A DNA stretch of 64,000 nt from Faecalibacter rhinopitheci (GTDB taxonomy: Bacteria > Bacteroidota > Bacteroidia > Flavobacteriales > Weeksellaceae). The stretch lies in contig NZ_JADGIK010000002.1 of the NCBI RefSeq assembly GCF_015234135.1, forward strand, positions 372,001-436,000, written 5' to 3'. This document shows, piece by piece, positions 13,234 to 18,735 of the stretch. The position numbers and the translations under genes are program-made. The notes under the pieces are model-generated. The model was not told the DNA's origin. It searched no databases and saw only the letters and a program-made list of their open reading frames with translations. The first letter of the stretch is position 1; every line of letters starts with the position of its first letter.

Positions 13234-14163
13234 TTATTTCCCTTGTTGAGCTTGCGCTTCAAATTGCTTTTGTAATTCAGCCATTTGCTCTTCAGTCAAT
13301 CCACCTTGTGGTTGTTGCTGTTGTGCACCACCATCTTTAAAATCAACTAATTCAACTTCGAATTCTAAAGCTTGGTTAGGTCCAATTTGTCCACCTGGCG
13401 CTCCATTTTCTCCATATCCTAACTCTGCAGGAATATAGAATTTATATGTTCCACCTTTAGACATTAATTGTAAACCTTCTGACCATCCTGGAATAACAGC
13501 GTTTAATGGAAACTCTACAGCTTCACCTTTGTTATTTTTCTCAGTAGAATCAAAAACTTTTCCGTTTGCTAATAATTTACCTGTGTACTTAACCTTTACA
13601 ATTGAATTTGCATTTGGTTTCTCACCTGTACCTTCTTTAACAACTTCGTAAACTAAACCAGATGCAGTAGCTTTTGCTCCTTTATTTGCTTTTTTAGCTT
13701 CAACTAATTTCTTAGACTCTTCGATGTTTTTCTTAGACATATTTTTCATATGGTTTTGCGCATATGTATCTAAGAATCCCATTCCGGCTTCTTGAGTGAT
13801 TAATAGTTTTTTGTGACGTACAACGTCCATAATACCTTGAACGATGATATCTTTATCTAATTGATCTAATTGTTGTTGGTTAATAACAGTTTCAATCTGT
13901 TGTCCCATTTGTTGACCAATTGAGTAAGATTCTCTACCTGTAGATCCGTTTAAATAATCTTTTAAACCTTTTTCTAACTGAGCGTAATCGATACTATCAG
14001 ATTCAACTAGGCGAGCAGACATTTGCTTAACACCTTCTCCTAAACCAGTTCCAAAAGCATAAGATGCTTTTTGATCGTCGTTATCTAATTTTTCTACAGT
14101 TTTTCCTTTGTTACAAGCTACTAAAGATGCAACAACGAAAATTCCTACAAGAACTTTTTTCAT
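13234..14163 (-). CDS. FKBP-type peptidyl-prolyl isomerase lipoprotein (FkpA/Mip-like)
   Basis: A 309-residue envelope lipoprotein that would speed proline isomerisation and help fold secreted proteins. The lipobox LVAC places the lipidated Cys at 17. Residues 25-150 form the helical FKBP_N dimerisation domain (YAFGTGLGEG, YSIGQQMGQQI). The FKBP catalytic domain (about 165-275) shows VKVKYTGKL, FDST, EFPLNAVIPGW and YIPAELGYG, the usual active-site residues. A Gln-rich tail (GGAQQQQPQGG) closes the protein. It is monocistronic, with a -7 box at 14192-14199 and a terminator at 13183. Confidence 0.92.
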   Translation of the reverse strand: MKKVLVGIFVVASLVACNKGKTVEKLDNDDQKASYAFGTGLGEGVKQMSARLVESDSIDYAQLEKGLKDYLNGSTGRESYSIGQQMGQQIETVINQQQLDQLDKDIIVQGIMDVVRHKKLLITQEAGMGFLDTYAQNHMKNMSKKNIEESKKLVEAKKANKGAKATASGLVYEVVKEGTGEKPNANSIVKVKYTGKLLANGKVFDSTEKNNKGEAVEFPLNAVIPGWSEGLQLMSKGGTYKFYIPAELGYGENGAPGGQIGPNQALEFEVELVDFKDGGAQQQQPQGGLTEEQMAELQKQFEAQAQQGK

Positions 14164-14252: not shown

Positions 14253-14918
14253 CTATTCATACAAATCCAACCCAAATTCTTCTTTCAATTTAAGGAGAAC
14301 AGGATTTTTAAGGACTAAAGCTTCAAATTTTTGTTTAGAAGTTAAAATATGGCTTTTAGCTTCTTGTGCAGAGTATTTAACTTCAATTGTAAAATAGAAG
14401 TTTTTTATTGAATTCCTCAACCCATTTATTATGCGATTTTTATAGGTTTCAAATTCTGATTCAGAAGAAGCTGAGATGAATTCTAGAGTAATTACATTAT
14501 TTTCTTCCACATAAATAGTTGTAGTAGACAATGCATTGTAAGCCGGAATATTTTGTTCCAATTTAAGTCGTTCTAAAAACTTATTCCAAAAATTCTGAAC
14601 ATCATTTAATTCATATTTTTCTCTTGGTAAATCATTTCTTAAAACTTCCTCCTCAACAAGATCTTTCTTTATATCTTTTATAGCTGATTTTAAACTAAAT
14701 GCAGAACCGCTAGAAGATCCCATAGGTTTGTTCGTTCTACGTTTAGGCTCTGGCGAAGGAATTACTTGTGCAGGTCGAACGGGTGTTTCCACTGCTTCCT
14801 GAGAAATTACACTTGGTATATTTTGTGGAATAGGTTGCCTTACTCCCGCAGCAGTTTGTTGCTGTTTAGCATCTTCTGTTAGATAGAATGAAGGTGGAAC
14901 TATCCTATACTTTTTTTT
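14253..14918 (-). CDS. dnaX: DnaX tau-specific C-terminal region, in the -1 frame relative to the dnaX start
   Basis: This open frame has no credible start of its own: the GTG at 14792 is internal to a frame open back to 14918, and the codon at 14921-14919 is a TAA stop. It is therefore the continuation of dnaX after a shift inside the A10 run (14920-14911). It supplies about 219 residues: a linker rich in Pro/Gln/Arg (PVRPAQVIPSPEPKRR) and a C-terminal alpha/beta domain (NFWNKFLERLKLEQNIPAYNA... GLRNSIKNFYFTIEVKYS) like Bacteroidota tau. With the N-terminal part the product is 578 residues, the usual tau length. Tau links the clamp loader to the polymerase core and DnaB. Confidence 0.8.
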   Translation of the reverse strand, partial: KKKYRIVPPSFYLTEDAKQQQTAAGVRQPIPQNIPSVISQEAVETPVRPAQVIPSPEPKRRTNKPMGSSSGSAFSLKSAIKDIKKDLVEEEVLRNDLPREKYELNDVQNFWNKFLERLKLEQNIPAYNALSTTTIYVEENNVITLEFISASSESEFETYKNRIINGLRNSIKNFYFTIEVKYSAQEAKSHILTSKQKFEALVLKNPVLLKLKEEFGLDLYE

Positions 14919-15988
14919 TTAAGCCCTTGTTCTTCTGCTGTTAAAGACGAAAGTTGCATTAATGCAATTTCTACCGTTAATCTTGGATTTTTACTAGTTT
15001 TATAATTGATATCTGCTTGGTTACAAATTTCAATTGCTCCGAATAAAAATACGCTAGAACATTTTTGTGCATGTGCTACATATTTTGCCTTTGTACGCTC
15101 TCCTACTTCTAATAATTGGACAGTATTGGCCGTTTTAGCCATTAATAAATCACGGAAGTGTGAACCTAATCCAGTAATAAATAAATGAGCATCAAAACCT
15201 TTATTCAAAATTGTATTGAATTGAAGCATTGCTTCTGGAATATCATTTGTTAAAAATGCATCCGTCATCTTAAAATAATATTCGTAGTCTAGAATATTTA
15301 AATTTTCTGCAACTGCATCTAAAGTTAGATTCTTATTGGTAAAAGTTACCATTCGATCTAAAATTGATAAAGAATCTCTTAATGCTCCGTCAGCTTTTTG
15401 TGCAATAAGATGTAAAGCATCATCTTCAAATTTCACATTCTCTTTAGTAGCTACATTTACTAAATGACCTTTAATATCATCTACAGATATACGTTTAAAA
15501 TCATAAATCTGACAACGAGATAATATTGTAGGTATAATTTTATGCTTTTCTGTCGTAGCTAATATAAAAATGGCATGAGCAGGAGGTTCTTCCAACGTTT
15601 TAAGAAAAGCATTGAAAGCTGCTGTGGATAACATATGAACCTCATCAATAATATAAACTCTATATTTTCCGATTTGTGGAACAATACGAACTTGGTCAAT
15701 TAAATTTCTGATATCATCAACCGAGTTATTAGAAGCTGCATCTAATTCAAAAATATTAAATGCAAAATCATTGTCCGCATCAACACCATTTTCTTCATTT
15801 ATTTTACGAGCTAAAATACGAGCGCAAGTTGTTTTACCCACTCCTCGTGGACCACAAAATAAAAGTGCTTGGGGTAATTGATGAGTCGTAATCGCTTGTT
15901 CTAAAGTACTTGTAATTGCTGATTGTCCTACAACATCTACAAATTCTAATGGGCGATATTTACGAGCTGATACTACAAAGTTTTCCAT
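14900..15988 (-). CDS. dnaX: DNA polymerase III subunit gamma/tau, N-terminal (gamma-like) part
   Basis: Reads 362 residues in the zero frame to a TAG just past an A10 run. It contains the AAA+ motor of the clamp loader: Walker A GPRGVGKT (residues about 46-53), Walker B YIIDEVHML, sensor 1 ATTEKHK, and the SRC arginine-finger motif in ILSRCQIYDF, followed by the lid and the oligomerisation domain III (about 240-360). The zero-frame stop falls right after domain III, so this product equals a gamma form, while a -1 shift in the A run yields 578-residue tau. The zinc-binding cysteines of E. coli DnaX are not present in the Walker A-proximal region. The -7 box at 15997-16004 implies an almost leaderless message. 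Confidence 0.93.
   Translation of the reverse strand: MENFVVSARKYRPLEFVDVVGQSAITSTLEQAITTHQLPQALLFCGPRGVGKTTCARILARKINEENGVDADNDFAFNIFELDAASNNSVDDIRNLIDQVRIVPQIGKYRVYIIDEVHMLSTAAFNAFLKTLEEPPAHAIFILATTEKHKIIPTILSRCQIYDFKRISVDDIKGHLVNVATKENVKFEDDALHLIAQKADGALRDSLSILDRMVTFTNKNLTLDAVAENLNILDYEYYFKMTDAFLTNDIPEAMLQFNTILNKGFDAHLFITGLGSHFRDLLMAKTANTVQLLEVGERTKAKYVAHAQKCSSVFLFGAIEICNQADINYKTSKNPRLTVEIALMQLSSLTAEEQGLKKKSIG
14911..14920 (-). other. A10 slippery run joining the two dnaX frames
   Basis: The coding strand reads CTT AAA AAA AAA AGT ATA GGA TAG in the zero frame. A -1 ribosomal shift, or transcripts with one added A, give AAG TAT AGG ATA GTT and open the tau frame. A purine-rich AAGGGC lies just upstream on the coding strand. 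An assembly error (true A11) would look the same. Confidence 0.7.
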
Positions 15989-16096: not shown

Positions 16097-16119
16097 CAAT
16101 CTCAATGATTAAACTAAGA

Positions 16120-18735
16120 ATGGCTATAAAAAATACACAACAAGAACCTAAAACAAATAAAACCAAATTATACTTAACGGGAATAAATATAATTATAATA
16201 GGAATTGGATTCTTACTTTTTATTTCATTTTTCTCCTATTATTTTAATGGATTCCAAGATCAAAGTCAAATTACTTCTTTAATGGATAAAGATGTAGTTG
16301 CAGAAAATTCTTTCGGAAAATTAGGAGCGTTAGCTGGTGATGTATTCATACATAATGGAATAGGAATTGCAGCATTTATATTACCTATATTTTTAGTCTT
16401 ATTTGGAGCAAAAAAAATAACTGGAAGTAAAGCGATTAAACCTTTTGGATTTCTTTCTAAATGCATTTTCTTCTTAATATGGTTACCTATTTTTATTGGT
16501 TTTTCTTATCCAGATCATCCAGAATTTTCTGGAATAATGGGATTTGAGATCAATGACTTTATGAATAGTTTCGTAGGAAAAATTGGTGTAGGATTTATTT
16601 TGCTTATTTCATTAGTTATCTATTTAATGTTTCGTTATGATTTAACGTACGATCGTTTTGTAGCTTGGCAAGAAAAAAGACGCGAAAAATTACGTCTTGA
16701 GAAAGAAGAAGAAGAACGAATAAGATTAGAAGAAGAACGTCTATTACTTGAAAAACGCGAGCAAGAACGTTTAACAGAATTTAATAAACAACAAGAATTA
16801 AAAATTCAGCAAAGAGTAAAAGAAGAAGAAGAGATACTTGAAAATTTTAATTCAGAAGCGATTAAATTAAATCAGGAAAAGCAACTTAATGAAAAAATAA
16901 ATACAGAAACTATAGAAGTTGCAGAAATACAACCACAAAGTGCTGAAAATGCTTTTGGTATAAATTCAATTGACAAAGATGACGATGATCATTCTATTTC
17001 ATTAAATATTATAGATGTTGTTGAAGAGGATGTTATAGAAGATGCAAACGACTTTAAAGTTCAATTACCTGTAGAAGAAGAATTATATGTTGAACCAGTT
17101 ACGGAAGAAAATTTAGATCTGATAGAAGATATTAAAATCGAAGAAACTGGACTAGAATTAAAAATAGAAACCGTTCAAGTAGAAGAAACAGTAGAACAAG
17201 CTGCTGCAAGAATTGTATCTGAACAAGGTGAATATGATCCGAGAAAAGATTTACCAAATTATCAATTTCCTAAAATAAATTTATTAAAGAAATATGATGC
17301 CTCTAACACGACGATGATAGATCAGAAAGAGTTAGAAGCTAATAAAAATCGTATTCTTGAGACATTAAATAATTATGGTATTGGAATAGAATCCATTAAA
17401 GCGACAATTGGCCCAACTGTTACATTATATGAAATTGTACCACAAGCTGGAGTGCGTATTTCTAAAATCAAAAACTTAGAAGATGATATTGCATTAAGTT
17501 TAGCAGCATTAGGTATTCGTATTATTGCACCAATTCCAGGAAAAGGAACCATCGGTATTGAAGTTCCTAATAGTAATCCTGCGATGGTATCGATGCACTC
17601 TGTTATTGCTTCTCAAAAATTTCAGTCTACGGATATGGAATTGCCGATTGCTTTTGGAAAAACTATTACAAACGAAACATTTATTGCTGATCTAGCTAAA
17701 ATGCCTCACCTACTTATGGCGGGTGCAACTGGACAAGGTAAATCTGTTGGGTTAAATGCGATTATTACATCTTTAATTTACAAGAAACATCCTTCTGAAT
17801 TAAAATTTGTTATGGTCGATCCTAAAAAGGTTGAACTTACTTTATATTCAAAAATAGAAAGACATTTTCTTGCTAAACTTCCGGATTCTGAAGATGCAAT
17901 TATTACTGATAATGCAAAAGTTATCAATACATTAAATTCATTATGTATTGAGATGGATGATCGTTATGAATTATTAAAGAATGCATTTGTAAGAAACATT
18001 AAAGAATATAATACAAAATTTAAAGCTAGAAAGTTAAATCCGGACAATGGACATCGATTTCTACCTTACATTGTATTAATTGTAGATGAATTTGCAGATT
18101 TAATAATGACTGCGGGAAAAGAAGTAGAATTACCAATTGCTCGTTTAGCGCAATTAGCTCGTGCGGTGGGAATTCATTTAATTATTGCTACTCAGCGTCC
18201 TTCGGTTAATGTAATTACAGGTACCATAAAAGCCAATTTCCCTGGACGTGTTGCTTTCCGTGTAACTTCTAAAATTGATTCTAGAACAATTTTGGATTCG
18301 GCTGGTGCAGATCAACTAATCGGTAAAGGTGATATGTTATTTACTACAGGAAATGAACTCATCCGTTTACAATGTGCTTTCGTAGATACACCAGAAGTAG
18401 ATGATATTACCGAATTTATTGGTGAACAAAGAGGTTATCCAGATGCTATGCATTTACCTGAATATGTGGGAGAAAATGAAGGATCTAGTGTAAGCGTGGA
18501 TTTATCAGACCGCGACGTTTTATTTAATGATGCCGCTCGTCTTATTGTTATTGCACAACAAGGTTCAGCTTCTCTTTTACAACGAAAACTAAAATTAGGA
18601 TATAATAGAGCGGGACGATTAATCGACCAATTAGAGGCTGCAGGAATTGTAGGCCCGTTTGAAGGAAGTAAGGCACGACAAGTATTAGTTTCAGATGAGG
18701 TTAATTTGGAACAGTTGTTGAATAATTTAAATTAA
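16120..18735 (+). CDS. ftsK: DNA translocase FtsK/SpoIIIE
   Basis: An 871-residue septal DNA pump. The N-terminus has four membrane segments (about 20-40, 75-95, 107-125, 150-170). A charged Glu/Lys-rich linker of about 200 residues follows, then the RecA-like motor with Walker A GATGQGKS (535-542), Walker B VLIVDEFADL and the ATQRPS motif. The C-terminal gamma winged helix (QGSASLLQRKLKLGYNRAGRLID) would read the KOPS/XerD-dif region. It clears DNA from the closing septum and activates XerD (1626-2516). I chose the ATG at 16120 over 16105 because of the promoter position. The downstream lolA-like gene starts 17 nt after the stop. Confidence 0.95.
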   Translation: MAIKNTQQEPKTNKTKLYLTGINIIIIGIGFLLFISFFSYYFNGFQDQSQITSLMDKDVVAENSFGKLGALAGDVFIHNGIGIAAFILPIFLVLFGAKKITGSKAIKPFGFLSKCIFFLIWLPIFIGFSYPDHPEFSGIMGFEINDFMNSFVGKIGVGFILLISLVIYLMFRYDLTYDRFVAWQEKRREKLRLEKEEEERIRLEEERLLLEKREQERLTEFNKQQELKIQQRVKEEEEILENFNSEAIKLNQEKQLNEKINTETIEVAEIQPQSAENAFGINSIDKDDDDHSISLNIIDVVEEDVIEDANDFKVQLPVEEELYVEPVTEENLDLIEDIKIEETGLELKIETVQVEETVEQAAARIVSEQGEYDPRKDLPNYQFPKINLLKKYDASNTTMIDQKELEANKNRILETLNNYGIGIESIKATIGPTVTLYEIVPQAGVRISKIKNLEDDIALSLAALGIRIIAPIPGKGTIGIEVPNSNPAMVSMHSVIASQKFQSTDMELPIAFGKTITNETFIADLAKMPHLLMAGATGQGKSVGLNAIITSLIYKKHPSELKFVMVDPKKVELTLYSKIERHFLAKLPDSEDAIITDNAKVINTLNSLCIEMDDRYELLKNAFVRNIKEYNTKFKARKLNPDNGHRFLPYIVLIVDEFADLIMTAGKEVELPIARLAQLARAVGIHLIIATQRPSVNVITGTIKANFPGRVAFRVTSKIDSRTILDSAGADQLIGKGDMLFTTGNELIRLQCAFVDTPEVDDITEFIGEQRGYPDAMHLPEYVGENEGSSVSVDLSDRDVLFNDAARLIVIAQQGSASLLQRKLKLGYNRAGRLIDQLEAAGIVGPFEGSKARQVLVSDEVNLEQLLNNLN

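Follow-up and report, generated by a model that had tools for sequence, protein, structure and literature searches.

A conserved slippery A run in dnaX of Bacteroidota and the probable encoding of two clamp-loader subunits by RNA polymerase slippage

Transcript slippage at an A9 run in dnaX of Thermus thermophilus was reportedly described by Larsen in 2000. The dnaX gene of Escherichia coli relies on a -1 ribosomal shift at A_AAA_AAG, with a stem-loop and an upstream Shine-Dalgarno-like site. According to the available portions of two papers (PMC1088944, PMC5009743), the Thermus dnaX transcript slips at A9 and long A runs are prone to slippage, and the second of these, a review, gives tRNA-Lys(UUU) as the only lysine tRNA of E. 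coli. A dnaX type consisting of two ORFs is already known in print: the accessible part of Antonov 2013 (PMC3711429) reports 17 such genes in 12 genera, nine of them with A10, for which transcriptional realignment was proposed.

Here we describe the dnaX gene of Faecalibacter rhinopitheci, found in a stretch of 64,000 nucleotides that was analysed as a whole (the window). The original prediction, that the gene is read in two frames joined at an A10 run, proved exact in its coordinates when the sequence was re-read (Table 1). Past the run the zero frame reads AAA AAA AAA, AGT ATA GGA and then TAG, and Pfam places the end of PF12169 (domain III) at residue 353 of its product, with the stop just beyond, as had been claimed. 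The tau frame is shut immediately upstream by a TAA that can be seen in the sequence, and the change of frame must therefore fall inside the A run, again in agreement with the prediction. It is entered by one added A or by a -1 shift, and the shifted product calculated from the coordinates has the predicted 578 residues. Judged from their translations, the neighbours of dnaX are a lipoprotein FKBP-type isomerase-like gene downstream (window positions 13234-14163, minus strand) and a divergent FtsK-like DNA translocase gene upstream (16105-18735, plus strand).

Table 1. Features of the dnaX locus, with positions counted from the first letter of the window.
Feature	Positions	Strand	Basis
dnaX zero frame, gamma form, 362 codons (362 aa; AAA+ ATPase, lid, domain III), from ATG at 15988	14900..15988	-	ORF, Pfam and NF011531
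A10 run where slippage is proposed, lying past domain III and before the tau-specific region	14911..14920	-	
TAG, zero-frame stop ending gamma	14900..14902	-	sequence
TAG stop of the third frame (entered when one A is lost or two are gained)	14905..14907	-	sequence
TAA closing the tau frame immediately upstream of the shift	14919..14921	-	sequence
tau-specific frame, about 220 codons past the run, linker and C-terminal part, open until its stop codon at 14255-14253	14253..14918	-	NF011531 417-614, purifying selection

The translation of the tau frame had no match in Pfam. It did match positions 417-614 of NF011531, the full-length gamma/tau family model (E 9e-19, 68 bits), to which the zero frame aligned with 608 bits; taken singly, each frame stays below the model's cut-off of 685. 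When the tau-region alignment was run as a profile against the PDB, the matches were weak throughout: 3wkr at E 0.0009, the DnaA domain 4tps at E 0.12 and one further entry at E 0.8.

The locus resembles E. coli dnaX in that two forms would come from one gene, in the A-rich slippery site, and in that tRNA-Lys(UUU) is the sole lysine tRNA found in the genome. (The tRNA check covered 87 genome matches, counts that are redundant since the loci overlap; the last two read were Phe and Leu.) In contrast to E. coli, where the shifted form is the short one, it is the long one here, the A run is longer, a general downstream structure is absent, and the shift that is needed varies between orthologues. 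With T. thermophilus dnaX, as far as the available sources describe it, the gene has in common a run of at least nine A and stops close by in both other frames, whereas the genomic frame encodes tau in Thermus and gamma here. The type described in the accessible part of Antonov 2013 also has a zero frame that ends after the N-terminal part, and reaches tau through a -1 change (counted on the DNA) at poly-A; two adjacent dnaX ORFs, poly-A at the transition and a transition conserved in relatives were all found in the present case. For this dnaX the longer product is indeed the shifted one, as had been stated, but this is not new. In the accessible text that study treats broken genes, whereas here, within the phylum, one run is common to broken and unbroken genes, and a literature search that covered few subscription papers found no statement, in the portions of the sources available, of a run shared by both kinds across the phylum. 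What is added here is the scope, the independence of phase, a run that switches between A10 and A11 from one close species to the next, and another gene built in this way within the genus.

The break is conserved in the genus, where the site was read in all 14 genomes (our own included) and the same break is present in 13. These 13 have an open dnaX frame of 369-382 codons; the frame of the remaining genome, G010, has A11 and is open over 584 codons. In three other relatives (L002, L003 and L004) a substitution beside the run gives A11, and yet the break is retained. A search of the family matched dnaX in 317 of 320 genomes at the set threshold, and among the matches listed the open frame exceeded 550 only in G010 and G310, while a separate search of 30 family genomes added one more open frame (G314). 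DNA was read at 66 family loci, including the 14 of the genus. Every one of them keeps a run of at least nine A; the break, always in one sense, is present in 63, and the other three are A11 and unbroken. In all 63 broken loci the zero frame meets its stop 4 to 11 nt past the run, and these stops are variously built (CTG ATT, TTA ATA, ATA GTT and others).

This comparison of run length and frame in relatives, which the original prediction had called for, bears directly on the serious alternative that it named, a sequencing error with a true A11. Homopolymers are error-prone in sequencing, and the A11 and open frame of G010 would suit either an error of sequencing or assembly or an indel that has lately inactivated the gene in this strain. 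However, the break recurs across independent genomes of the genus and family, persisting even in the A11 loci L002, L003 and L004, and error is excluded as a serious alternative; the chance that it or a recent indel accounts for the break is negligible. The A11 assemblies, for their part, could themselves be wrong.

Read in the shifted frame, the tau region shows purifying selection. Its dN/dS was 0.03 to 0.35 in nine of ten genus pairs, with dS saturated in the tenth and several dS values near or at saturation. The gamma part gave 0.02-0.05 (six pairs), the tau part being less strictly constrained. Loss of tau is ruled out by this selection and by the C-terminal match to NF011531. Together with the conserved break, the selection supports the predicted change of frame within the A run, whether by a -1 ribosomal shift or by an added A.

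Close species can differ in the run: G310 has A11 and is in frame, whereas G308 and G309 have A10 and are broken, the species being 97-98% identical up to the run. Such differences might also be produced by replication slippage, that is, by genomic A10/A11 phase variation leading to clonal states with gamma only or tau only. We regard this as very improbable, as the broken state is stable within the family and phase variation does not call for the early closure of both other frames described below; moreover, every cell would be expected to require tau. Differing runs at 97-99% identity before the run were seen among L186 (G310), L187 (G308) and L188 (G309), and also between L011 (G010) and L012 (G011); in these close-species pairs A11 places tau in frame and A10 places gamma in frame.

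To extend the comparison to the phylum, 233 dnaX loci (232 distinct) were collected, made up of 14 from the genus, 80 named Bacteroidota, 30 from the family, and sets of 20, 29 and 60 others. Where domain III comes to its end, the longest A run has at least nine A in 198 of the 232 distinct loci and at most seven in 34, with A8 in none. Over all 233 loci, 30 have no run of six or more, and the lengths are otherwise distributed as A6 in 1, A7 in 3, A8 in 0, A9 in 29, A10 in 137, A11 in 30, A12 in 2 and A13 in 1. An even draw from the phylum comprised 158 genomes, of which 156 matched and 90 were read. All 39 from the window's class or nearer were read and 38 have the run; 51 of the 117 matched genomes farther away were read, chosen for variety of genera, and 28 of these have it. 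The named set, which was picked by similarity and is hence biased, has the run in 70 of 80, and among the ten named loci lacking it are those with Bacteroidaceae or Bacteroides in their titles (L066, L068, L081, L110).

A shift is needed in 105 loci, and all 105 have the run. Conversely, the zero frame is longer than 450 codons in 33 of the 34 loci without a run (L065, one of these, runs off its contig). In the remaining run-less locus, L083, the frame stops 16 nt before the contig end; this 3' end resembles what we take to be a Nextera transposase adapter, which would explain the odd end of the frame.

A chance A run in an AT-rich gene was considered and ruled out by controls within the genes and by GC-rich genomes. 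In the first 960 nt of the 232 dnaX genes, 222,720 bases in all, a run of A reaches nine once and never exceeds it; the 99,519 bases of tau region have A9 three times and nothing beyond. Elsewhere in the same genes KKK is spelled AAA AAA AAA in 1 of 30 cases, and 8 of 19 GC-rich loci (GC at least 0.57) keep the run. A Fisher test in these controls gave p 2e-10, a value that treats relatives as independent and is not leaned on.

The frame in which the run is set varies. Among the 198 runs, tau is in frame in 93 loci, one more A is needed in 101 and two more in 4, and the run starts in phase 0, 1 and 2 in 77, 66 and 55 loci, respectively. On a FastTree tree of the dnaX N-terminal part, shift class must have changed at least 25 times, phase 32 times, run length 44 times and run presence 16 times. 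In the four loci of the last shift class (L043, L050, L084 and L120) tau is reached by two more A or by one A fewer, and some of these may be assembly errors.

Both frames other than tau close early. Whichever of the two continues farther past the run meets a stop after a median of 5 codons, as compared with 17 at random downstream points. The third frame, which is never entered by a single -1 ribosomal shift, closes within 8 codons in 86% of 194 loci versus 50% of control points, and in 84% of 140 loci when one locus per genus was taken (named loci counted singly); as with the Fisher test, the Mann-Whitney tests on this closure treat related loci as independent. Long A runs with stops nearby in both non-tau frames, found here with A10 in the window and with at least nine A in 198 of the 232 loci, are the sequence features of the Thermus type.

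We now turn to how two proteins could arise. We think it likely, on the strength of these sequence comparisons, that dnaX encodes two clamp-loader subunits by way of a conserved slippery A run on which RNA polymerase slips. The polymerase would stutter on the run and give rise to a mixed population of mRNAs. Those with 10 A (or 10 plus or minus multiples of 3) would be read to the nearby TAG and yield gamma, those with 11 A and equivalents would join the tau frame and yield tau, and other lengths would reach the third-frame stop and yield a gamma-like product. By such stuttering the cell very probably makes both the short and the long DnaX. Because all lengths would be made, the genomic run length would matter little, and lineages could thus drift from a genome with gamma in frame to one with tau in frame and back, with the run and its flanking stops being kept. 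That RNA polymerase and not the ribosome shifts, that both proteins are made, and in what ratio, is what we infer.

An alternative is programmed -1 ribosomal frameshifting at A_AAA_AAA with the E. coli roles reversed, the zero frame encoding gamma and the shifted frame tau. A heptamer of the form A_AAA_AAN lies in the zero frame in 198 of 198 runs. That of the window is A_AAA_AAA, named as slippery in the accessible part of PMC3711429, and not the E. coli-type A_AAA_AAG, which is the last heptamer in 40 of the 198 loci. Reversed-role dnaX genes are mentioned in the 2016 review, as far as its available text goes (PMC5009743). The single lysine tRNA found would suit such a shift too, and the class that needs one more A, which is equivalent to a -1 shift, is nearly fixed in the family. 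A Shine-Dalgarno-like word occurs at most 20 nt upstream in 17 of the 198 loci, compared with 2.4% in the control. The window, where AAGGG lies near the A run, has none of the four words that were looked for within 20 nt upstream. The 60 nt downstream of the run in the window have a fairly stable fold (-10.6 kcal/mol; z of -2.3 relative to mononucleotide shuffles and of -1.3 relative to the window's own gene), and of the three nearest relatives L004 folds comparably (-9.5) while L002 and L003 do not.

On the other hand, over the 198 loci there was no general signal of downstream structure (mean z 0.07 versus other windows of the same genes), and RNA structure as a stimulator was rejected on this ground. 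Three features of the E. coli type, A_AAA_AAG in the window, a conserved stem-loop and a Shine-Dalgarno-like word upstream, were looked for and not found. Further, the heptamer requires no run of nine or more A, the needed shift varies among the phylum's orthologues, a single -1 shift would not bring the four loci lacking two A into the tau frame, and the third frame closes early too. Programmed frameshifting is in our judgement unlikely. The accessible part of Antonov 2013 offers a guide in the direction of the shift, which when inconstant among orthologues points to transcriptional realignment and when constant to the ribosome (PMC3711429). Here the direction is inconstant in the phylum and nearly constant in the family (one more A in 63 of 66).

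Ribosomes could also slide on poly(A) in several directions, a translational mechanism that is as free of phase as transcript slippage. Sliding on iterated AAA was shown for E. coli in the available part of PMC4363877. In the cell-free E. coli system of that work, however, A11 gave a robust product and A9 and A10 little, whereas the 198 runs of the phylum include 166 of just these two shorter lengths. We hold sliding to be less probable still than programmed frameshifting. As the needed shift is inconstant across the phylum and A9 and A10 gave little product in that system, transcript slippage comes first, and judging by sequence a Thermus-like slippage of RNA polymerase fits better than a ribosomal shift of the E. 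coli type. A ribosomal share beside slippage is kept open, in view of the heptamer in all 198 runs and of tRNA-Lys(UUU) as the only lysine tRNA found.

Gene finders may call dnaX genes of this kind truncated or pseudogenes, and tau may be missing from annotations. If RNA polymerase slippage is true, polymerases across much of the phylum would routinely issue two forms of a replication protein. The near-identical species pairs with A10 and A11 offer a natural experiment for telling RNA polymerase slippage from ribosomal frameshifting.

The genome was also scanned for other long frames joined across an A run, with all 28 runs of at least ten A (23 exact A10 and 5 longer) and 100 of the 167 exact A9 sites examined. 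One clear case was found besides dnaX. It lies outside the window, at G000:C42:9863-9874, where a frame of the GH3 family (beta-N-acetylhexosaminidase-like) ends right after an A10, while the frame entered by one more A goes on to encode a serine hydrolase domain (PF00144). The best NCBIfam match of the serine hydrolase part, PBP4B, scored below its own cut-off, and every other listed curated NCBIfam cut-off was likewise missed.

The junction was read in the 14 genus genomes (our own, L276 and L330; relatives, L331-L343), with A9 in 11 and A10 in 3. It is broken in the same sense in 13 of them and in frame in G009. The serine hydrolase part has 379 codons in 14 of 14, and its dN/dS was 0.05 to 0.12 (eight pairs). 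A search of 40 genomes for the GH3 gene matched 36, of which 30 loci were read, 16 of these outside the genus. Outside the genus the frame is unbroken in 8 of 16 (880-901 codons from the start of the match, a fusion by length only) and a short GH3 frame is present in the other 8, and a junction run of nine A was found in none of the 16 loci read. The GH3-serine hydrolase gene is likely to be a second slippage gene, with a run apparently acquired in this genus; a literature search for slippage at such a gene found nothing relevant. If slippage holds, this gene would show the device being acquired anew.

Both genes can be brought under one reading, to which we give even chances, namely that the 9-11 A run of the phylum is a phase-neutral splitter. 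Selection would then keep the run and the two stops and not the genomic frame, because RNA polymerase would make all lengths, and the device would have been newly placed, within this genus, at the GH3-serine hydrolase junction, yielding the fusion and its first half.

The frame changes at two other sites of the genome, L256 and L409, look like gene boundaries, and several of its A9 and A10 runs sit in frame inside long ORFs. Among the ORFs that remain in frame across an A10 are L260 (G000:C1:223054) and L264 (G000:C5:28784), which from their translations are peptidyl-prolyl isomerase-like and HTH-protein-like, respectively, and in which slippage would yield truncated products.
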